This document shows positions 19,334 to 31,102 of a stretch of 64,000 nt of DNA, one piece after another. The stretch lies in contig CACBEJ010000003.1 in assembly GCA_902538255.1 (NCBI GenBank), forward strand, positions 1 to 64,000, read 5' to 3'. Origin of the DNA: an uncultured Pelagibacteraceae bacterium (GTDB lineage Bacteria; Pseudomonadota; Alphaproteobacteria; Pelagibacterales; Pelagibacteraceae). The notes under the pieces were generated by a model, which ran no database searches, was not told the origin of the DNA, and saw nothing but the letters and a program-made list of their open reading frames with translations. A program made the position numbers and the translations under genes. Position 1 is the first letter of the stretch; each line of letters starts with the position of its first letter.

Positions 19334-19373
19334 GGGCCTGTAGCTCAGTTGGTTAGAGCAGTTCACTCATAAT
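19334..19373 (+). repeat. Truncated 5' fragment (about 40 nt) of the tRNA(CAT) at 31103
   Basis: gggcctgtagctcagttggttagagcagttcactcataat; one mismatch to 31103-31142; sequence diverges right after the anticodon loop. Confidence 0.93.
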
Positions 19374-19499
19374 TTCTTGTTAAAAAAATTTGCTTAAAAA
19401 ATCATTAATTAACAGTACTAATTTAAACATTTAAAAATGAAAAATTTTTCAACAACTATTTACCAACGAATTCATTTTAAAATTCTGTTAATTTGAAAT

Positions 19500-19913
19500 T
19501 TAAGAACTATTTTTGATTAATGATTTTGCAATTGTTTCTGCTAAAATAACAGGAACTGCGTTTCCAACTTGATGGTATGTTTCCATCTGAGTACCTAAAA
19601 AAACAAAATCGTCAGGAAATGATTGAAGTCTTGCGGCCTCTCTTACCGACAATGTTCTTGTTTCGGTAGGGTGAATATACATATATCCATCCATACCTAT
19701 ATGAGCAATTACAGTCCATGAAGGTTTATTATTAACTAATCTCTTTAACCGATCATGAAAGATGTCTTCTCTAAAGGGCAGAATATTCCTAATCTTTTTT
19801 GGTAGATCCATATATTTACTACCTTGCCTCATGTGTTTGAATACTCTCTTTGCTCTTTCATTTGTCATTCGACAAATATTATTTTTTACAGTTCCATTAG
19901 TTTTAGCTCTCAT
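19500..19913 (-). CDS. C5-cytosine DNA methyltransferase, C-terminal part (TRD region and motifs IX-X); beta chain of a split enzyme or frameshifted half
   Basis: TLSVREAARLQSFPDDFVFLG (motif IX) and YHQVGNAVPVILAETIA (motif X); overlaps the upstream ORF by 11 nt. Confidence 0.88.
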   Translation of the reverse strand: MRAKTNGTVKNNICRMTNERAKRVFKHMRQGSKYMDLPKKIRNILPFREDIFHDRLKRLVNNKPSWTVIAHIGMDGYMYIHPTETRTLSVREAARLQSFPDDFVFLGTQMETYHQVGNAVPVILAETIAKSLIKNSS

Positions 19914-20661
19914 CTTTTTTTTGATAATTATTTAAGTTATTTGATTTCGAATACTCACACTCATCAATTCTCCAATTATCAGTAATCTTAGGTAAATCTG
20001 AAATTGCATCTTTCACAGTTACATATTTTTGATTTTTTGAAAAAAGATTGTCTTCAGAAAAATATTTTATTTCTGGAATATTATATTTAAATTTCTTAAT
20101 TTTCGTTCCTATCAAAATCATTCTTTTTCTTGTTTGAGGCACACCATAGTCAGCAGCATTAAAAATTAAGTTCTTTTCATTAAGAATTTTATACCCTAAT
20201 TTTTCAATCATATTTTTTGTTTGAGTAAAAATAGAACCATTATATTTTGTCATAAAATTTGGAACATTTTCCATTACGAAATGATCAGGTTGGAAGTATT
20301 CAATGTAATTAAAGTAGTTTTTAAATAAAAAATTTCTATCATCATCAAATAAAGTGAAATTAGAATTTTTTTTGCTTTTGACAGATTTGATTTTTGCGTG
20401 ACCTATTGTTGAAAAAGTAGGACAAGGTGGTCCACCTATAATTAAATGTATTTTTTTATTTCTAATTTTTTCTTTAAATTTGTTAGGTTTAATCTTTGAA
20501 ATATCAGAGTTAATAGAAACACAATCAGGAAAGTTTAATTTATGAGTATCAATACAAGCCTTTGATACATCAATTGCACCCACACATCTATAACCAGCTC
20601 TTTCAAAACCTAGAGATAAACCTCCAGCACCACAAAATAAATCTATAAAATTTTTACCCAC
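19903..20661 (-). CDS. C5-cytosine DNA methyltransferase, N-terminal part (motifs I-VIII); alpha chain of a split enzyme or frameshifted half
   Basis: FIDLFCGAGGLSLGFERAGY (I), GGPPCPTFSTIG (IV), MENVPNF (VI), YGVPQTRKRMILIG (VIII). Confidence 0.9.
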   Translation of the reverse strand: MGKNFIDLFCGAGGLSLGFERAGYRCVGAIDVSKACIDTHKLNFPDCVSINSDISKIKPNKFKEKIRNKKIHLIIGGPPCPTFSTIGHAKIKSVKSKKNSNFTLFDDDRNFLFKNYFNYIEYFQPDHFVMENVPNFMTKYNGSIFTQTKNMIEKLGYKILNEKNLIFNAADYGVPQTRKRMILIGTKIKKFKYNIPEIKYFSEDNLFSKNQKYVTVKDAISDLPKITDNWRIDECEYSKSNNLNNYQKKDES

Positions 20662-21805
20662 AATATTTTTTAATTACTTTTGCTAATTTATAAGCCATTA
20701 AAGGAGGAACAGCATTACCTACTTGCTTATATTGTTCGGTTCTTGATCCTAGAAAAATAAAATTATCTTGGAAGGATTGTATTCTTGCAGCTTCTCTAAC
20801 AGTAAAAGTTCTCTCTTGTTTATAATCAGGATGTATAAAAAGATTTCCATCTTTGTAAAGATGAGAAACAACTGTTTTACCAGGTAAGTTATATTTTTGA
20901 ACTGTATACCTGTTGTGGAAATGCTCAGGATCATGATGAATTAAATCAGGCCTTACTTTTTTTAGGTCTCTTAGTGCCCAATTTTTTTTGCTTAAATATT
21001 TATATCTCTGTCTGTCTTTTTCATTATGTTTTCTAGCAACATGATTATAGAGAACTTTACTATTTTTTATTTTTTTTAAATAATTATTCTTGGACGAATT
21101 TTCAAATTTTAATTTTTCTTCACCCTCACCAGGTTTTAAAGAAGGTAAATCAGCGATAGCATCTTTGACTGTAAATATTTTTTTTTCTTTACTTTTGTTA
21201 ATTAATTCATCATAAATTTTTGGAACTATAAATGAATATTTTTTTAATACTCCTATAACAAATACCCTTTTTCTTACTTGAGGCACTCCGTATTCGGAAG
21301 TATCAAATACCATTTGTGATGTATTGTCTAAAGTTACATATCCAAGTTTCTTTGATAAATTAAGAATATCGTCAAAAATTTTTGTTCCATTTGGTTTTGC
21401 TGAAAGTATACCTCTTACATTTTCAAAAACATAAAATTTTGGTTTTATAATTTTTAAACATTCGAAAAAATCTTTATAAAAATAATTTCTTTTATCTTTA
21501 CGCATTGAGTATTTGTCCTGAGCCCTACCAACACTTGAAAAACTTTGACAAGGTAGACCAGCCACTACACCTTCTATAGGTGTACCATTCATCTTGCTTT
21601 TAAGAATTTTTTTAAATTTTTTTGTTGTTATATCTTCGTTAATTACATGTGTGTTTTTAAACCTATTTTTGAAAGTTTCACATGACCAAAAATTAAAATC
21701 TGCAGCAAGATATGACTTATATCCTGATTTCTCAAAACCTTCTGCAAAACCTCCACAGCCAGAGAATAGATCTATTATGTATTTGTCTTTATTTTTTTGA
21801 TACAT
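20654..21805 (-). CDS. C5-cytosine DNA methyltransferase, full length
   Basis: IIDLFSGCGGFAEGFEKSGY, AGLPCQSFSSVGRAQ, FENVRGI, YGVPQVRKRVFVIG, TFTVREAARIQSFQDNFIFLG, YKQVGNAVPPLMAYKLA. Confidence 0.95.
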   Translation of the reverse strand: MYQKNKDKYIIDLFSGCGGFAEGFEKSGYKSYLAADFNFWSCETFKNRFKNTHVINEDITTKKFKKILKSKMNGTPIEGVVAGLPCQSFSSVGRAQDKYSMRKDKRNYFYKDFFECLKIIKPKFYVFENVRGILSAKPNGTKIFDDILNLSKKLGYVTLDNTSQMVFDTSEYGVPQVRKRVFVIGVLKKYSFIVPKIYDELINKSKEKKIFTVKDAIADLPSLKPGEGEEKLKFENSSKNNYLKKIKNSKVLYNHVARKHNEKDRQRYKYLSKKNWALRDLKKVRPDLIHHDPEHFHNRYTVQKYNLPGKTVVSHLYKDGNLFIHPDYKQERTFTVREAARIQSFQDNFIFLGSRTEQYKQVGNAVPPLMAYKLAKVIKKYCG

Positions 21806-21812
21806 TTTTTAA

Positions 21813-22226
21813 ATGGATGAAACCTTTATAACATTATCTATTAACAAATTTTTAAGTGAAAACAATTACGAAGTTATTCAATGTATTCCACCAGGAGGAC
21901 AGGGTGGAATTTATTATTCATTAAAAAACAATATTATTTACCCAGATATAATATGTTTAAAAGATAAAATTCTATATATAGGTGAAAATAAAACACTCTT
22001 TAACGAATCGGATGAAAAAAAACTGATTGAATTAAGCAATGAAGAGAGCTTATTTGAAAAATCTCAAAAAATTGTTGATAACTTTTTAAAATCTAAAAAT
22101 AAACCACACGAAAAAATCGACGATATTAAGTTCTTTTTAGGCTTTTCATCTAGCTCAAAAAAGCAATCAAATGTTCATATAAACATCCTAGTAGATAATA
22201 ATGGTAAAGTTTTATTAAAAAATTAA
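21813..22226 (+). CDS. Small putative PD-(D/E)XK nuclease-fold protein
   Basis: 137 aa; YPDIICLKDKILYIGENKT fits PD-x(n)-ExK; starts 7 nt from the divergent methyltransferase. Confidence 0.6.
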   Translation: MDETFITLSINKFLSENNYEVIQCIPPGGQGGIYYSLKNNIIYPDIICLKDKILYIGENKTLFNESDEKKLIELSNEESLFEKSQKIVDNFLKSKNKPHEKIDDIKFFLGFSSSSKKQSNVHINILVDNNGKVLLKN

Positions 22227-23369
22227 AACTCCATCTTTAAAAATCATCATATCACAAAAATATCCATATATTCTCAAAGGCTTATTTTTTGTATAGGTGC
22301 AGCCGTATTGTAAATGATGAGAAATTTTAAATTGACTTTGATAATTTTCAAGCTCAGAACTTTTAAAAGGACAGTTTACATCGTAATATTTTTGATATCC
22401 TTTTGGTCCCATAACTTTTTTAATTTGAGCATCTTCACTATTTAACGGCATAAAAACTAAATTTATTTTTCTTTCCTCAACATTTCTTCCAATTCTACAG
22501 AATGCATAGTCAAATGATCCGAGCATACCAACATAAGGATCAGCAGCATGAGCAAATAGACGACTCGATTTTGTATCTGGCTGTAGTATCAATGTTTTTT
22601 CTCTAGATGTGATTCTTGAGGGCAAATTTTCTACAGTTTTATTTATCCAGTTGATATTTAGGTCTTGATAACCTTCTAAATAGTTTTTTAATTGAGAAGT
22701 ATTTATTAACTTACAGGTAGGAAGGTCTTCTATTTTGTAAATTTTTCCTTCAGTGTCATTTTTTTGTTTTTCAAATTTTATTTTCCAAGATTGACAGTCG
22801 AAAACTTTATAATCATGATTTTCAAAATTTTGATCATGATTTATGTAATCTTTTATTAAATCAAACATTTCTAACATATTTGGATGTAAAAGTTTTGGTA
22901 AGCCAGGAAAACCATCCTCATCTAAAAGAATATTGTTTGAATTTGAGTAATGAAAAAAAACAGATGGAATTTTATTAATTGAAGAAATTTTGTTTAACAA
23001 ATCATAATGTTTTGGATTAAATTTGTATGTGTATCCATCAATTTTTTTTGGACATATATAAATTGAGCAAACATCACTTTCAGCTGCTGCAATTATTCTA
23101 GGAATTCTTTGCTCGATATGTTGAGAAGCAGGTTTAGATTTTGTTATTTCAATACATAATATCGGTCTCTCAATATTTTCATTTTTTTTACTAATAATTA
23201 AATCAGGTTTATCTAATCTTAAAATATTTTTAAGTTTTTCTGGAAGATTAAGAAATTTAGGGTCTCCTGGATTTGGAATTTTTTCAAAAGTAAAGTTAAA
23301 ATCACTTGAAATACCTTTTTTAAACCAATTAAAATTAAGTTCGTTTTCTGTTCTTACAACTATTTCCAT
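22215..23369 (-). CDS. Hypothetical protein, possible restriction-endonuclease-like protein
   Basis: 384 aa; KPDLIISKKNENIERPILCIEITKSKPASQHIEQRIPRI resembles a degenerate PD-ExT/K core; in the Z1/DUF4420 gene string. Confidence 0.5.
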   Translation of the reverse strand: MEIVVRTENELNFNWFKKGISSDFNFTFEKIPNPGDPKFLNLPEKLKNILRLDKPDLIISKKNENIERPILCIEITKSKPASQHIEQRIPRIIAAAESDVCSIYICPKKIDGYTYKFNPKHYDLLNKISSINKIPSVFFHYSNSNNILLDEDGFPGLPKLLHPNMLEMFDLIKDYINHDQNFENHDYKVFDCQSWKIKFEKQKNDTEGKIYKIEDLPTCKLINTSQLKNYLEGYQDLNINWINKTVENLPSRITSREKTLILQPDTKSSRLFAHAADPYVGMLGSFDYAFCRIGRNVEERKINLVFMPLNSEDAQIKKVMGPKGYQKYYDVNCPFKSSELENYQSQFKISHHLQYGCTYTKNKPLRIYGYFCDMMIFKDGVLIF

Positions 23370-23378
23370 AATTTTTTA

Positions 23379-24365
23379 TTATTCTATGAAATTTTCATCA
23401 GAAACAAATTTTTTTATCCTATTAATATCAATTGAAAATGATACCTCATTTATTCCCTCAGCTAAATCTTCTTTTAATATTGTTGGAAATTTATTTGTTA
23501 ATTTATAAAATAGTAAAGAATTAGCTACATATTTAGTTTCATAATTTTTTTTATGTATTTCAAAATACCCATATGCACTTAGTTTTTTTTCAAAGGAAAT
23601 TTTTAAATTATTGTTGTCATTAAAAATTTTTTTTATATCATCTATAATTTCAACAAGTGTTTTTCCAGATAAATTCTGTTCTATCTCAGCACAACCAAGG
23701 TATAAATTTGAAAAAAATTTATAATTAAGCTGATCTAAATTATTTATTTTAATTTTATTTTTTCTTTTTGAATAAGTTTTAATTTCTAATAAAAATTTTG
23801 GAAATTTAAAATCATGCAATCCACCTTCAGGTCCTTCCCAATAATTCAAAATATTTGACGAATTAATATTTTTTGAAATAGCTTTATTAAAAAAAGTAAG
23901 CTCTCCAAATAATCCAATTTCTTCCTCTTTAGTTAAACCTTCGTATTTTTCATCTTCAAAACATTTTCTCCAATTTATTAATAAATTTGAAATAATATCA
24001 AAACATAATTTTTGATTATCTATGTCATAGATAGAAGTAATTATTTTTTCTAAAAGATTTTCATATGCGTCCAAAAAAGAACTATTTTTAAGATAAATTG
24101 ATAAAATTAATAAATTTTTATCGTCTTCATCATTTTCAAAACTTACCTTTATCCCTTTGGTTTCTTTAAATTCAAAATTTGATTTATTAACCAATGTTTT
24201 GTTGAAAATAAAGTTCACTGATTTGAATTTATTTTCATAAATGACTGATGCGCTAATAGGAGTTTTGCAATCTGTAAATATACTTCTTGAATATTTTCCA
24301 GGATTATTTATTTCTGAAGATATTTTTTTCCAAGCATCAATAATTTTATTAAAATCAAATTTCAT
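23379..24365 (-). CDS. DUF4420-like putative PD-(D/E)XK family protein
   Basis: EEEIGLFGELTFFNKAI...YWEGPEGGLHDFKFPKFLLEIKTYSKRKNKI; D-x(n)-EIK core; start overlaps the Z1 stop by 11 nt. Confidence 0.82.
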   Translation of the reverse strand: MKFDFNKIIDAWKKISSEINNPGKYSRSIFTDCKTPISASVIYENKFKSVNFIFNKTLVNKSNFEFKETKGIKVSFENDEDDKNLLILSIYLKNSSFLDAYENLLEKIITSIYDIDNQKLCFDIISNLLINWRKCFEDEKYEGLTKEEEIGLFGELTFFNKAISKNINSSNILNYWEGPEGGLHDFKFPKFLLEIKTYSKRKNKIKINNLDQLNYKFFSNLYLGCAEIEQNLSGKTLVEIIDDIKKIFNDNNNLKISFEKKLSAYGYFEIHKKNYETKYVANSLLFYKLTNKFPTILKEDLAEGINEVSFSIDINRIKKFVSDENFIE

Positions 24366-27300
24366 TTGATAATTCGTGTTCTGCGTAAACTGAATTCACT
24401 CTGTACTCTACAGCAGCTTTATCTCCCATTCTTGAGTATGGAAAACTAATTTGAAATCCCATTAATGGGTATTTTGTTAAGTGATCTTTATCAATTTTAT
24501 TAATATCGTTATGTCCTTTTACAACATGCTTTTTACAATTTTTTTCACAATCGCTTTTACAATTTTTGTAACCTTTGAATTTTTTAAAGGAAGATAAATT
24601 TTTTATTCCTAGAATAGGATATAAATTTAATAATCCTCTTTTTTCACTTCTATGATATCTTGCGAAACCTCTTTTGGCAGAAGTTATTGTTTGCTCCTCT
24701 GTCTGTGTATCATGTGTTTTTGTGAAATTTTCCAAACTATCTTTGTATGCTTTTAGCTCATCGCCTTCTAAACCTAGCAACTCATCTGTTGGCTGGGTAA
24801 TTACTTTAAGACTTATTTTTTTTTTATTTCTTTGATTTGACGGTGTTCTTAATATTAATTCGACATTATGTTTGTCTAATATATTTAAATTTTGTCCAGA
24901 CGAACCATTACCATGTAAACATACAGTCCAATTCGTAAGTTCATTGTATTTATTAAGATTTTCAATGTATCTTGCAAATTGAGATGTTCCCAAACTTCTC
25001 TGTTCCTCAAATCGTTTATACGTGTTCAGATAATTTATTATTTTCTCAGGATCTACATTTTTCCATAAAAAAATATTTTTCCATCTATGTAAATCATTTT
25101 CAAATTCTCCCGATATTACAGGATCACTTATTGACTCCAGAAGTTTTTCAGAAGATATAAAATTAGATTTAATTACTTCATCATCATTTACAAATGTTAT
25201 TATTTCCTCAACTTCTTGAGAAAAAGAAGTTTGTTCTACTCTTGAATGACGCATTTTAGTTTTTGATGTAATAATCAAATTTGGATTAGTTCTAACTTTA
25301 AGTCCAAATTCACTAGGAGTTGATCCTTGGGCGGCCATTATTCTAAAAGCATTTCTTAACTCTTCTGTAGCCACAGAAATATGAAAAAACCATCTAATAA
25401 CATTATCTGTTGTATATAATCTACATAAATCTTGATAGCCCATACGATAGCCAAACCATCTACCCATTTGCATTAAGGTATCATACATTGGCATTTTTGC
25501 AGATCTTAAGAAATAACTAATAGACAATCCTTCAAGAGTTAAACCTCGAGAAAGTTTGTCACCACCAATAATTATTGTATGTAATCCGAAACCATTGTCA
25601 CTTTTAAACCTTTTATACTCTAGAGTATCGTTTTTTCTTCCGTTTAAAACTTTAATATTTTGACAAATTTGATTTATAACAAAATCTAAACTTCTTTTAT
25701 CATTAATTAATTCTAACCAAGAAGGATATTTATTTTCGTTTGTATCTTTATAAATATAAAACTTTTCTTCCCAAATTTTTTTAAAAGTAGAAATTGTTTC
25801 TTCGTATTTTTCATTATCTTTATTAATTCTATTTCTAAGTAAAAAAAGATAATCGTTTACTTGTTTGTATACAATATCTTGAACATCTACAAACTTAGTT
25901 ACATGAATAAGCATTGACTTTGCATCCTCTACATAGCCTCTAAAATTTCTACAAGCAGAAGTTAAGATAAATGAAATTATTGCTTCTTTAAGAGAGGGTG
26001 GAAGATCTATTTCTGGATCATTTTTATTATTATATTCGGGCTGATGGTAACGATCATGACGAGGGGGCATCCAACCCTCACTACAATCTGGGTCATCTGG
26101 GAAAAGTGAACTGTCTTCAACTATTTGAAAAAAATGATTATCATCTATCTCTCTGTCTTGAACTTGTTCACCGTCTACAATTTCAGTATTAAATATTTTT
26201 TCTAAACCAACATGGTTAGAAGGTATTGGTAAGTCGATAATATAATCTTTTGGAAATAAATCTAATCCTTCTTCATTAGTTTTAGCTTGATTATGTATAA
26301 ATATATTTGCAAAAGGAGTTGCTGTATACCCTATGTAAACACGTTTATCGAAAATATTTAACAAAGTTCTAATTAATCGATTAATTGTTTTTGGATCGTA
26401 ATCGAGATCGAAGTTTCCTTCCTCATTAACTAATTGTTCTCCAGTATCAACAGAACCATTATCAACCTCATCATCAATAATTAAAATTGGTTTATCTTTT
26501 ATGAACGGTGGAAATGTAGAGAAGTGACCTCTTACTTTGAAAGGTTTTTGTTCTACAGTTACACCATGAACTTTAGGAGAGCTTAAGTAATACCCAATAA
26601 GTTTTTCAAGTACTGATTTATTTTTTTTCACCACAAATATTGCAGGATCGTCTGTATGAAAATTTAAGTTATCAGCAACGTTCTTTTTGAAATCTCCATT
26701 TAATTTACTATTAGTGCCACAACTAATAATTGGGAGTTTATAATTCATTCTTCTTGCTGCGAGAGGACCTTGATATATTTTAGTCCCTAAAGAACTTGCT
26801 TGAGTATCATAGGCTAGTAAACCTTCGTCCACTCTTATTTGAGTTTGTTGTCTAAGATTGTTATTTAAACCAGAAAGAACAATAATTTTTTTATAACCTG
26901 CATCGACAGCTTTATTTAGGAAACCAATAAAATTTGAAGTTTTTCCTGATTGCACACTACCTACAACCAAACCTCTAGAGTCCCAAAAGCCATCTCTATT
27001 CGGATCCTCTATACTCTTCATCATTAAGTCTGTGGTTTTATCCATAGCAGCTACAGCATCGGGAGAATATTGAAGGTCATTTTTAATATATTCTCTGTAT
27101 GTTTCCCAATAAGGTCTATCTTTTGTTGAATCATACCAATCTACATGATCACTCTTTCCTTTTATAATTGCGTGAGTAGAACTTTTAACAGTAAAATTTT
27201 CTAATAGTTGTAATATGAGTTTATCTTTGAATTCATAGTCTTTAGGTTGTTTTAAAAAATGTATAGCTTCTTCTACTACGAGTGATATTTTTTTCTTTGA

Positions 27301-27384
27301 TAAATCATTAGGTGTCACGACTTCTATTTGAGAAACACACACATTATAAAGTTTATCAAAAATTGAACTTTTCATGTTACTCAT
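24355..27384 (-). CDS. Z1 domain-containing P-loop ATPase
   Basis: GLVVGSVQSGKTSNFIGFLNKAVDAGYKKIIVLSGLNNNLRQQT (Walker A), PILIIDDEVDNGSVDT (Walker B), YIGYTATPFANIFI, GGDKLSRGLTLEGLSISYFLRSAKMPMYDTLMQMGRWFGYRMGYQDLCRLYTT. Confidence 0.93.
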   Translation of the reverse strand: MSNMKSSIFDKLYNVCVSQIEVVTPNDLSKKKISLVVEEAIHFLKQPKDYEFKDKLILQLLENFTVKSSTHAIIKGKSDHVDWYDSTKDRPYWETYREYIKNDLQYSPDAVAAMDKTTDLMMKSIEDPNRDGFWDSRGLVVGSVQSGKTSNFIGFLNKAVDAGYKKIIVLSGLNNNLRQQTQIRVDEGLLAYDTQASSLGTKIYQGPLAARRMNYKLPIISCGTNSKLNGDFKKNVADNLNFHTDDPAIFVVKKNKSVLEKLIGYYLSSPKVHGVTVEQKPFKVRGHFSTFPPFIKDKPILIIDDEVDNGSVDTGEQLVNEEGNFDLDYDPKTINRLIRTLLNIFDKRVYIGYTATPFANIFIHNQAKTNEEGLDLFPKDYIIDLPIPSNHVGLEKIFNTEIVDGEQVQDREIDDNHFFQIVEDSSLFPDDPDCSEGWMPPRHDRYHQPEYNNKNDPEIDLPPSLKEAIISFILTSACRNFRGYVEDAKSMLIHVTKFVDVQDIVYKQVNDYLFLLRNRINKDNEKYEETISTFKKIWEEKFYIYKDTNENKYPSWLELINDKRSLDFVINQICQNIKVLNGRKNDTLEYKRFKSDNGFGLHTIIIGGDKLSRGLTLEGLSISYFLRSAKMPMYDTLMQMGRWFGYRMGYQDLCRLYTTDNVIRWFFHISVATEELRNAFRIMAAQGSTPSEFGLKVRTNPNLIITSKTKMRHSRVEQTSFSQEVEEIITFVNDDEVIKSNFISSEKLLESISDPVISGEFENDLHRWKNIFLWKNVDPEKIINYLNTYKRFEEQRSLGTSQFARYIENLNKYNELTNWTVCLHGNGSSGQNLNILDKHNVELILRTPSNQRNKKKISLKVITQPTDELLGLEGDELKAYKDSLENFTKTHDTQTEEQTITSAKRGFARYHRSEKRGLLNLYPILGIKNLSSFKKFKGYKNCKSDCEKNCKKHVVKGHNDINKIDKDHLTKYPLMGFQISFPYSRMGDKAAVEYRVNSVYAEHELSNEI

Positions 27385-27410
27385 ATTAAAAAACTTAGTA
27401 TATTTTTAAT

Positions 27411-27959
27411 ATGAATTCAATTTCTTCAAAAGTTAGTAAAGTGATCAATATTATAGAAACTAAAGATTTATCCAAAAAAGAATTAATTAATTATTTTAAT
27501 AATATCAACAATTATCCATCTATATCTGAGAATGAAAGAGAAAGATTGATTGAAGTTGTTGAAAAAAAAATGAGAGTAAATTTTCCAAATACTGCAAAAA
27601 AAATATTGGGAGGTAAAAGTTCAAAAGCAAGAGAACTATTAGATAATTTTTTTAGCAAACTAATTGTTGATTTTGATTGGTCTAAAAATAAAGTTGGGAC
27701 AAGGGTTAAAGCTGGCGGTAGCATGATAAGTGGTAAAGAATATGTTTGTTGGTATATTTCCTATAAAAATGAAAAAGGCTACTCGACCGGATTACATTAT
27801 AGACAATTAACTCCCAAAACTGATCCCTACTTAGAAATTGATTTTAGAAAAGTGGGTAAACATTTTGAAAATGAAAAGAAGCTTAATAAATTTCCTGTAG
27901 AACTTAAAGATGATGCTTTTTCTCTTTTTAAAGAATATTTAATTCAAATAATAAATTAA
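27411..27959 (+). CDS. Hypothetical protein divergently linked to the Z1 operon
   Basis: 182 aa; 26-nt gap from the divergent Z1 start; no family recognised. Confidence 0.65.
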   Translation: MNSISSKVSKVINIIETKDLSKKELINYFNNINNYPSISENERERLIEVVEKKMRVNFPNTAKKILGGKSSKARELLDNFFSKLIVDFDWSKNKVGTRVKAGGSMISGKEYVCWYISYKNEKGYSTGLHYRQLTPKTDPYLEIDFRKVGKHFENEKKLNKFPVELKDDAFSLFKEYLIQIIN

Positions 27960-28019
27960 AATAATAATTTAAAATAACAATTTAAAAACATATTTAAGTC
28001 TAAATATTAACAACAAATC

Positions 28020-28123
28020 ATGCATTAATTCGAAATGCATTGGATTTCAATCCTTTTCTATCGTATTCCGCTTTTTTTAATTTCTCCCTTGTTGCGTAAT
28101 TCGATCAAAAAGAAGAGGATTGA
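28020..28123 (+). other. Candidate structured RNA/leader with two inverted repeats
   Basis: ATGCATT(28020-28026)/AATGCAT(28034-28040), 7-nt loop; TCAATCCTTTTCT(28047-28059)/AGAAGAGGATTGA(28111-28123), one G-U type mismatch. Confidence 0.35.
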
Positions 28124-28186
28124 GACCATAACCAATTACAAACTTTTAACTCTCAAAAAATCAATTAACAATAGGAGTTCCAATAT

Positions 28187-28372
28187 ATGGAAATAGGCCG
28201 TGTCTGTAAGTACTGTCACGTGAGTGCTTACGTTGCGTATGATAACTGCGACCCAGTTTATAAACAAACTTTCAAATTCGAGATATTACCAGGTGAACAC
28301 AACAGTTTAGTCTGGGATAAAATCATAAAAATATTTAAGAAAAATGGATACAAAGTGGAGCTCAAATCATGA
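28187..28372 (+). CDS. Small hypothetical protein
   Basis: 61 aa; aggag upstream of ATG; stop/start overlap with the next ORF. Confidence 0.55.
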   Translation: MEIGRVCKYCHVSAYVAYDNCDPVYKQTFKFEILPGEHNSLVWDKIIKIFKKNGYKVELKS

Positions 28373-28932
28373 AAAGAGTTTTGCTCATTTTTTTATTACA
28401 TCTATCTCTTTTTTTTATTGTATTCGCCTATCAAGCCCAAGCAGATGAAAGAAATTGGGAAATATCTAAATATGAGGGTCAAAGTTATGCCCTTGTATCT
28501 GGAGAGATTCAAAGAACAGACAAATTTTCATTTGTTTTATCTCCAGAGGGTCAGTGCCAAGAAGTAAGTTCAATGTTTTCTTTTTTTACATGGAATAACC
28601 CTGGTGATTTTGATCAATTAATAGGAAGAAAAGTTCCAATTAAATTAAATAATATTGAAACAACTGCAGAGGTATTAACGACTTTTCCTTATAAGGAAGG
28701 TTTAAAAGTAGTTTTTTATTTTGGTACATTTCCACTCAAAGAATATATCTATACGATGTATAAATTTTATGAAGAAGAGGGTATTTATCAGATTCAAATA
28801 GTTGATGGACTGAATTTTGTTGCTTCAAAGTATTTTGATATTACTGAAAATAATTGGAAATTTGATAATTTGATTACATCTATTAACGATGCTTTTGAAA
28901 TCTGTAAAAATATTAAAGATTTGAAAATTTAA
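28369..28932 (+). CDS. Hypothetical secreted/periplasmic protein
   Basis: N-terminal signal peptide MKRVLLIFLLHLSLFFIVFAYQAQADE. Confidence 0.7.
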   Translation: MKRVLLIFLLHLSLFFIVFAYQAQADERNWEISKYEGQSYALVSGEIQRTDKFSFVLSPEGQCQEVSSMFSFFTWNNPGDFDQLIGRKVPIKLNNIETTAEVLTTFPYKEGLKVVFYFGTFPLKEYIYTMYKFYEEEGIYQIQIVDGLNFVASKYFDITENNWKFDNLITSINDAFEICKNIKDLKI

Positions 28933-28935
28933 TTT

Positions 28936-29274
28936 TTACAAATCCTCGTTATGCCAGGTAAAAAGATCAGCTTCAAAAGGAATATTTCTAAATTTTAATA
29001 AAGCCTTATATTTCTCAAGTCTGTCCTCTTTTTTAGCACTTTTTAAGTATGTAAGGATTTGATCATAGGTCAAACCTTTCAAATTATCTTTTTTCACATC
29101 TACATACTCCTCATATTCCATACCTGCTATTGCATAGCCTTTATTTGGATCTATGTGTTCTGCATAACTAATGGTGTCTTCAGTTTCTTTAAGGATATCG
29201 TACCAGTGAGCAACTTGATTTTTATTATCAAAAAGATAATCTTTTCTGTAATCAAACAGTTCTAACTGCTGCAT
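28936..29274 (-). CDS. Hypothetical protein
   Basis: 112 aa ORF MQQLELFDYRKDYLFDNKNQVAHWYDILKE; soluble, no family recognised. Confidence 0.6.
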   Translation of the reverse strand: MQQLELFDYRKDYLFDNKNQVAHWYDILKETEDTISYAEHIDPNKGYAIAGMEYEEYVDVKKDNLKGLTYDQILTYLKSAKKEDRLEKYKALLKFRNIPFEADLFTWHNEDL

Positions 29275-29421
29275 ATTTTTGAAGTATTTAAATTAAGAAA
29301 ATTAACTAACAATTAATAATATAATTTTTAATTATGTCATAAGTATGATAAAATTATTTAGTCCTGATTTAGAAAATAACTCTACTTGCTAGGACTTAAA
29401 ATAAAACGCTAAAGGAGAAAC

Positions 29422-29595
29422 ATGAAAATAAAAATACAATCAATAAGAGACTTTTTTAAATCAAAAGAAAAAAAAGGTTTAAAACCTATATTTTTTGAGA
29501 GCATTGGAGATCAAAATACTTCAAGAGATGAAAGGCTTAAGAATCTGATAAAAATTCTAGAAAAAAATGGATTTAAAATTAAAAATAAAAAATAA
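29422..29595 (+). CDS. Small ORF (57 aa) absent from the ORF track
   Basis: MKIKIQSIRDFFKSKEKKGLKPIFFESIGDQNTSRDERLKNLIKILEKNGFKIKNKK; aaaggag 5-6 nt upstream of ATG. Confidence 0.5.
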   Translation: MKIKIQSIRDFFKSKEKKGLKPIFFESIGDQNTSRDERLKNLIKILEKNGFKIKNKK

Positions 29596-29668
29596 TTATT
29601 TAAATTGAAATTTATTTTTTAATTATTATATTAATTTGGTTGGTTAATAAGACTATTTATTAACGTTT

Positions 29669-29729
29669 AGGGAAGAAAAAATATGATTGTTATTTTAATA
29701 GATCTTAAACGGTGTATTTTTTCTTCCCT
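29669..29729. repeat. Inverted repeat, perfect 14-bp arms
   Basis: AGGGAAGAAAAAAT (29669-29682) and ATTTTTTCTTCCCT (29716-29729), 33-nt spacer. Confidence 0.85.
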
Positions 29730-29790
29730 TATAAATGTTTAAATTTTTTAAAGTTTTATCCAATCAACATAAAATAAATGTAACAATATA

Positions 29791-29863
29791 AAACCGTTAG
29801 GTTTGATATTGGATTCGAAGATTTATGCTTAGGATTATTGTATCCTTATTAAACTTACGGTTT
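29791..29863 (+). promoter_or_regulatory. Candidate structured 5' leader of the 29876 ORF
   Basis: Outer arms AAACCGTTAGGTTT (29791-29804)/AAACTTACGGTTT (29851-29863); inner hairpin AGGAT (29831-29835)/ATCCT (29842-29846). Confidence 0.45.
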
Positions 29864-29875
29864 GAGAAAGGATAA

Positions 29876-30136
29876 ATGAAAAAAAATAAACCTAATTTAA
29901 ATGTTAATGAAAAATTAGTTAAAATGTTTGAGGATCAAATCCCAGAAAATCGTCAACAAGTCTTGAGAGATATTGATAGTATTATGTGCAACATGTTTGA
30001 ATTGCACCCAAACGATTTACCTTGGATAAATCCTAACAAACATGAGGAAAAATGGGAAAATCTTATGAATAATTTAAGATTAATTGTTGGTAAGATAGAA
30101 TACGAAGGTAAGAGAAAAAAAAGGACGGTGCACTAA
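29876..30136 (+). CDS. Hypothetical protein
   Basis: 86 aa, coupled (1-nt overlap) to the downstream nuclease. Confidence 0.65.
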   Translation: MKKNKPNLNVNEKLVKMFEDQIPENRQQVLRDIDSIMCNMFELHPNDLPWINPNKHEEKWENLMNNLRLIVGKIEYEGKRKKRTVH

Positions 30137-30984
30137 TGATTAGTTTAAAACGAAATAGTAAAACTGGAGAATTAGTTAAAGCTACTGGTGTAACCAGTCA
30201 AAAATTTAGAATCTATACTCCTAATCAAAATAAAGATTTTACTTTAAGCAGATCAAGATTTGATGATTTTATGACTTGTGAGAGATGTTTTTATTTAAAG
30301 GTAAATAAAGGCTTTATGTCTCCTTCAACTCCTGGATGGACATTAAATACATTAACTGACACCTTGTTAAAAAAGGAGTTTGATGAATGTAGGGCAAAAC
30401 AAATTCCTCATAGGATTATGACTAAATATAATCTTAGAGATTTGGTTCCATATGCTTCAGAAAAGATCAAGGGTAAAAATGGTAGTGATAAATTATTATT
30501 GGATGAATGGAGGGATTCACTTCATTATGGAATTAAGCATAGATTTAAAGATACCAACATTATTTTGCAAGGAGGCGTGGATGATGTTTGGTTTAATACT
30601 AAATCGAAAGAATTGGTCATAGCTGATTATAAATCTCAGCATAAAAAAGATGAGGTTTCCCAAGATACTTATTTCGATGATCCATACAAAGAAGGGTATC
30701 AAAGACAACTTGATTATTATGCATATATCTTAAAAGGTATGGGTTACAAGGTTTCATCAGATGCTTATTTTTATATATGTAATGCAAAAGAAGTTGATCA
30801 AGGTTTTCATGGCAAGATGTTATTTGATGAAGTTTTAATTCATTACAAAATCAAAACAGATTATCTCGAAGATGAGATTCAAAAAATGATAGATGTGATG
30901 AATTCCTCTGAGATACCAAATTTTCATGAAAGCTGTGAGAATTGTGCTTATGCAAGACAAAGGTCAGTTATTGATAAACTGTAA
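30136..30984 (+). CDS. PD-(D/E)XK superfamily nuclease (RecB/Cas4-like)
   Basis: LSRSRFDDFMTCERCFYL; VIADYKSQHKK (D-x-K core); YQRQLDYYAYIL (QxxxY motif); ESCENCAYARQR. Confidence 0.85.
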   Translation: MISLKRNSKTGELVKATGVTSQKFRIYTPNQNKDFTLSRSRFDDFMTCERCFYLKVNKGFMSPSTPGWTLNTLTDTLLKKEFDECRAKQIPHRIMTKYNLRDLVPYASEKIKGKNGSDKLLLDEWRDSLHYGIKHRFKDTNIILQGGVDDVWFNTKSKELVIADYKSQHKKDEVSQDTYFDDPYKEGYQRQLDYYAYILKGMGYKVSSDAYFYICNAKEVDQGFHGKMLFDEVLIHYKIKTDYLEDEIQKMIDVMNSSEIPNFHESCENCAYARQRSVIDKL

Positions 30985-31102
30985 TCTACTTACCAACCGA
31001 TTTACCAACCAATGCAATTACAAAAGGAAATAAATAGAAACAAAGCAAAAACATTGATGCTTGATAAACTTTTTTTATGGTATAAAACCTAGGTTTATCA
31101 AA

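Follow-up and report, generated by a model that had tools for sequence, protein, structure and literature searches.

To our knowledge, systems built on a Z1 ATPase and a DUF4420 protein are widespread and their mechanism is unproven. One published putative system has Z1, DUF4420 and a cytosine methyltransferase (MTase) at its core (Miller et al. 2022, PMC9523054), and Z1, DUF4420, a C5 MTase and an EcoRII-like restriction endonuclease (REase) are found in C. diphtheriae (PMC5379612). Operons with Z1 and an E-D-ExK protein have been reported (PMC2292703). The CglI and NgoAVII systems consist of a C5 MTase, an REase (R-protein) and a Z1-type N-protein, and cleavage requires ATP hydrolysis by the N-protein (PMC4267653).

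The stretch analyzed here (the window, 64,000 nucleotides) belongs to a SAR11 assembly of 1.08 Mb in 43 contigs that is 83% complete (G000), and carries one cluster of this kind, termed W. As in the anti-phage system MZA (mzaABCDE), a MzaC-like Z1 (6e-176 in PADLOC) adjoins a MzaD-like DUF4420; unlike MZA, the cluster is devoid of MzaB (GHKL) and MzaE (AIPR), it has extra C5 MTases and the proteins P384 and P137, and its MzaC and MzaD fall below the NCBIfam equivalog cut-offs (684 bits against 1500 and 136 bits against 420, respectively). We regard the Z1 protein as a divergent form of MzaC and the DUF4420 protein as a divergent form of MzaD. The three core genes of the Miller et al. system also stand close together in the window, which differs by its two MTases and P384/P137; the likeness was established for the core genes. 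A GHKL- and AIPR-less core with an added REase is likewise present in C. diphtheriae and on a Priestia plasmid (L078) with the order Z1-DUF4420-AlwI-like REase-C5 MTase, but the candidate REase of the window belongs to a family without assignment. CglI and NgoAVII share with the window a C5 MTase and a Z1 ATPase, and their separate nuclease protein may have a counterpart in the candidates P384 and P137. In contrast, their nuclease is of the PLD-B3 type, they have no DUF4420, and the window Z1 scores far higher as MzaC than as PADLOC type II helicase. The original prediction of a variant or possibly undescribed configuration is retained for the variant and its unassigned ORFs, but the class itself was already published (PMC9523054, PMC5379612; Priestia L078). 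In this variant, the cassette that accompanies the Z1-DUF4420 core varies from one relative to another.

Organization of the cluster

Eight ORFs had been predicted to form a tight cluster, and all of them were recovered in place, separated by short gaps or overlapping (Table 1). Overlaps are of 11 nt (Z1/DUF4420), 12 nt (P384/P137, convergent), 8 nt (MT2/MT1a) and 11 nt (MT1a/MT1b), and gaps of 9 nt (DUF4420/P384), 7 nt (P137/MT2, divergent) and 26 nt (Z1/P182, divergent); P137 lies antisense inside the operon. The predicted C5 MTase, DUF4420 and Z1 assignments were supported by Pfam, whilst P137, P384 and P182 gave no convincing match in Pfam, PADLOC, NCBIfam or PHROG. That the ORFs are chance reading frames was ruled out by dN/dS between W and the homologous cluster of the single-cell genome SAR11-SAG-MED10 (G740, locus L066; L084, JACWDH010000019.1, is the same contig). 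The values were 0.014/0.65 for P384 (ratio about 0.02), 0.084/0.80 for P137 (ratio about 0.1) and about 0.10/1.03 for MT2, and the ratios were well below 1 for Z1 and DUF4420.

Table 1. Coordinates of the cluster, of the island that carries it and of further island genes.
Feature	Position	Strand	Evidence
Island, 11.8 kb, inserted in tRNA-Met	19334..31102		tRNA repeat and upstream match
MT1b, C-terminal portion of C5 MTase 1	19500..19913	-	PF00145 1.6e-17
MT1a, N-terminal portion of C5 MTase 1, catalytic	19903..20661	-	PF00145 2.7e-47
MT2, complete C5-cytosine MTase, 383 aa	20654..21805	-	PF00145 2.2e-60
P137, small PD-x12-ExK candidate nuclease	21813..22226	+	motif in 3 copies, dN/dS
P384, candidate restriction nuclease with PD-(D/E)XK-like N-terminus	22215..23369	-	model, conservation
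DUF4420 / MzaD-like PD-(D/E)XK protein	23379..24365	-	PF14390 1.4e-56
Z1 ATPase/helicase-like, MzaC-like	24355..27384	-	PF10593 1e-71
P182, recurrent SAR11 defence-island gene	27411..27959	+	homologues in L028, L065, L086/L087, L088
w61 + w187 accessory pair, signal-peptide-like	28187..28932	+	recurrent around SAR11 Z1 islands
Cas4-like PD-(D/E)XK protein, CxxC pairs	30136..30984	+	PF12705 1.3e-9

The Z1-DUF4420 core and its relatives

The catalytic-type motif foreseen in DUF4420 is intact: its E-D-ExK residues are kept across 12 aligned homologues. The Z1 protein sequence gave no usable match in the PDB, and viral contigs searched with the Z1 C-terminus and DUF4420 gave none. The predicted absence of HATPase/MORC and AIPR genes was confirmed, as no GHKL/MORC (MzaB) match was found among the cluster ORFs and no AIPR (MzaE, PF10592) match in the 83%-complete assembly; weak HATPase_c_3 (PF13589) matches are located on other contigs of the assembly (1.1e-5 and 3.3e-4).

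Among 50 DUF4420/Z1 loci surveyed, most carry GHKL, AIPR or both. Neither was found in W, L028, L066, L029, L031, L078 and L127, nor in L030 and L129, which lie near contig ends. In the Z1 tree, W, L066, L028, L141 and L142 form one clade (support 100/100) without GHKL or AIPR that spans three SAR11 genera and comprises W, two Pelagibacter relatives and members of two other genera; a larger Z1 tree was also made without L141 and L142. The link of this clade to GHKL- or AIPR-bearing groups is weakly supported (61/79), so that loss of both genes from an MZA-like ancestor is likely rather than proven. Another GHKL- and AIPR-less Z1-DUF4420 type is represented by L029, L031 and L127, with unassigned genes whose products measure about 612, 300 and 260 aa; in L031, the 616-aa protein partially matches PADLOC PDC-M33A.

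Variation of the cassette among SAR11 relatives

The neighborhood of the Z1-DUF4420-P384 triplet, whose conservation had been proposed as a check, was compared among relatives, and the same order was found in two further records. In L066, the order is Z1-DUF4420-P384-P137 (opposite)-MT2-MT1; L085 (PCCQ01000041.1, a 7.3-kb MAG contig) has the same order and is 97.9% identical to the window at the nucleotide level, so that both orphans, P384 and P137, co-occur with Z1 and DUF4420 in the two records. L085 is binned as Neomarinimicrobiota, which may reflect misbinning or transfer. Identity between W and L066 in 300-bp bins is 96-100% across Z1 and DUF4420; beyond them, starting with P384, it is 74-93%, and this fall near the DUF4420/P384 boundary is consistent with exchange of the cassette.

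More distant relatives differ in gene content. In G404 (L028), Z1 (80%), DUF4420 (64%) and P182 (55%) are kept, the two C5 MTases are different ones (36% in the best pair), and P384/P137 give way to an HNH nuclease. In two other SAR11 genera, a minimal operon of four genes (L141:6900-12726 and L142:7087-12836) encodes a Cas4-like PD-(D/E)XK protein directly upstream of Z1, followed by DUF4420 and one C5 MTase. P384 is missing from this minimal form, and the core therefore does not need it. Combined, these comparisons show that Z1-DUF4420 is retained while the modification/nuclease cassette varies within the SAR11 clade; what matters most is that cassettes are exchanged, more than that additional ORFs occur.

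Candidate nucleases

P384 is 97-99% identical in L066 and L085. Modeling of this 384-aa product, as had been suggested, yielded a mean pLDDT of 41, with about 52-77 over the N-terminal 100 residues, where a weak model places elements in a PD-(D/E)XK-like order. The top Foldseek matches of P384 were XPF/Mus81/Hef nucleases at a non-significant E of 0.02-0.05 (none below 0.001), and its third motif is E-I-T-K, not the canonical ExK. Searches of 100 relatives and of viral contig, phage and plasmid sequences gave no usable match to P384, and neither P384 nor P137 had one by sequence in the PDB. The nuclease assignment of P384 is thus a weak one; P384 is the better nuclease candidate. The PD-ExK motif noted in the small ORF P137 is real (PD-x12-ExK, PD...ENK, invariant across 3 copies), and its nuclease role stays that of a candidate. 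Kinship between P384 and P137 was ruled out, as profile comparison shows them to be unrelated.

The C5 methyltransferases

MT1 and MT2, which are 37% identical, are the sole C5 MTases detected in the 83%-complete assembly. MT1, originally described as a split enzyme, is actually one gene, in which the reading frame shifts within a run of A at ~19913 and so separates MT1a from MT1b: it is a single intact ORF of 386 aa in L066, and in L085 its frame is open past the point where the window breaks. The length of the A-run varies among the three copies (W, L066, L085), and the break may therefore be due to misassembly or slippage, or MT1 may be an enzyme of two chains. M.AquI is a two-chain C5 MTase made from overlapping ORFs. 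A broken MT1 beside an active nuclease would be dangerous, unless the break is a misassembly, MT1 works as two chains or it is phase-variable.

Insertion in tRNA-Met

The cluster came in on a mobile island. At the left end, native upstream sequence is followed by the native 5' half of tRNA-Met (19334-19373); at the right end, a second, element-borne 5' half is fused to the native 3' half. The empty site in relatives consists of tRNA-Val then tRNA-Met with no insert. In G504, another element occupies the same tRNA-Met site with a C5 MTase-DUF4420-Z1-GHKL cargo; it has the same two ends as the window island, the right end being alike. The window island and L039 with L148 share the tRNA-Met site and nearly identical right ends and differ in Z1/DUF4420 cargo. 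No integrase was recognized in either of these two elements and no Phage_integrase (PF00589) in the window assembly; the right end of the island had no match in viral contigs.

Interpretation of the cluster

As predicted, the cluster is very probably a locus for restriction-type defence and belongs with the Z1/DUF4420/C5-MTase systems. Our preferred reading, with a probability of roughly 60%, is a C5-methylation-based restriction-modification (RM) system in which a Z1-DUF4420 motor/nuclease core is joined to an exchangeable specificity cassette (P384, P137 and the two MTases). What we observe is which genes are present, that they are conserved and under purifying selection, that the DUF4420 motif is intact, that the cassette changes between relatives and that the cluster originates on a mobile island; ATP-coupled cleavage, site recognition by an R-like protein and an anti-phage role would be expected by analogy with CglI/NgoAVII. 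MT1 and MT2 would methylate host sites, the presence of two MTases perhaps reflecting an asymmetric site. P384, perhaps with P137, would recognize the site when it is unmethylated on incoming DNA; Z1 would hydrolyze ATP and remodel or travel along the DNA, and P384 and/or DUF4420 would cut. At somewhat less than even odds, we also propose a Z1-DUF4420 branch proper to SAR11, in which exchangeable nuclease/MTase cassettes would have replaced GHKL and AIPR and of which P384 and P137 would found new restriction nuclease families.

The sharp change of identity near the DUF4420/P384 boundary might instead mark the junction of two neighboring systems, a minimal Z1-DUF4420 system such as that of L141/L142, which lacks P384 and has a single MTase, and a separate type II RM unit (P384/P137/MT1/MT2) recombined alongside, in which MT1 and MT2 would be related as a type IIS pair might be. 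We consider this doubtful: the adjacency is the same in all three P384 records, the G404 core is likewise accompanied by two MTases and a nuclease, and setting MT1 and MT2 apart would leave the core here without an MTase of its own. Decay is much less probable. The frame break in MT1 and the absence of GHKL and AIPR, present in most surveyed DUF4420 loci, could denote an inactive remnant of an MZA operon, but dN/dS is well below 1 for P384, P137, MT2, Z1 and DUF4420, MT1 is whole in L066 and in L085 its frame runs on through the point of the break, and the GHKL- and AIPR-less clade covers three SAR11 genera. RM systems are known to stabilize elements, and the cluster rides on the tRNA-Met island; a selfish role in maintaining the island by modification-dependent addiction, rather than in anti-phage defence, nevertheless seems improbable, as it is compatible with restriction without being exclusive of it and the G504 element, which occupies this site too, bears a different Z1/DUF4420 system.

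SAR11 is among the most abundant marine bacterial groups, and its small genomes retain few unused genes. Variants without GHKL and AIPR that swap the nuclease/MTase cassette could reveal what the Z1-DUF4420 core does alone, and would allow it to be tested as a platform for exchangeable specificities.

P182 and other genes of the island

Homologues of P182 were found in L028, L065, L086/L087 and L088; the gene is present in 4 of 399 genomes of the genus, in G404 and on one viral contig. The genus search did not find it in G740, whose contig ends near Z1. In W, L028 and L088, P182 adjoins a Z1 system, and in L086/L087 and L065 it lies away from Z1, which rules it out as a core gene. Its predicted membership of the system is thus reduced to that of a recurrent, non-obligate neighbor in SAR11 defence islands. 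The fold check proposed for this 27411 product gave a confident model (pLDDT 81) but no fold match below E 0.46, and its sequence had no usable match in the PDB. The L065 homologue (L065:8811-9380) sits on an IMG/VR contig bearing an integrase-like ORF.

The w61/w187 pair, or w187 alone, is also found near SAR11 islands (L028, L039, L045, L067-L069, L087). A homologue of the window Cas4-like protein lies directly upstream of Z1 in L141 (match 5e-100).
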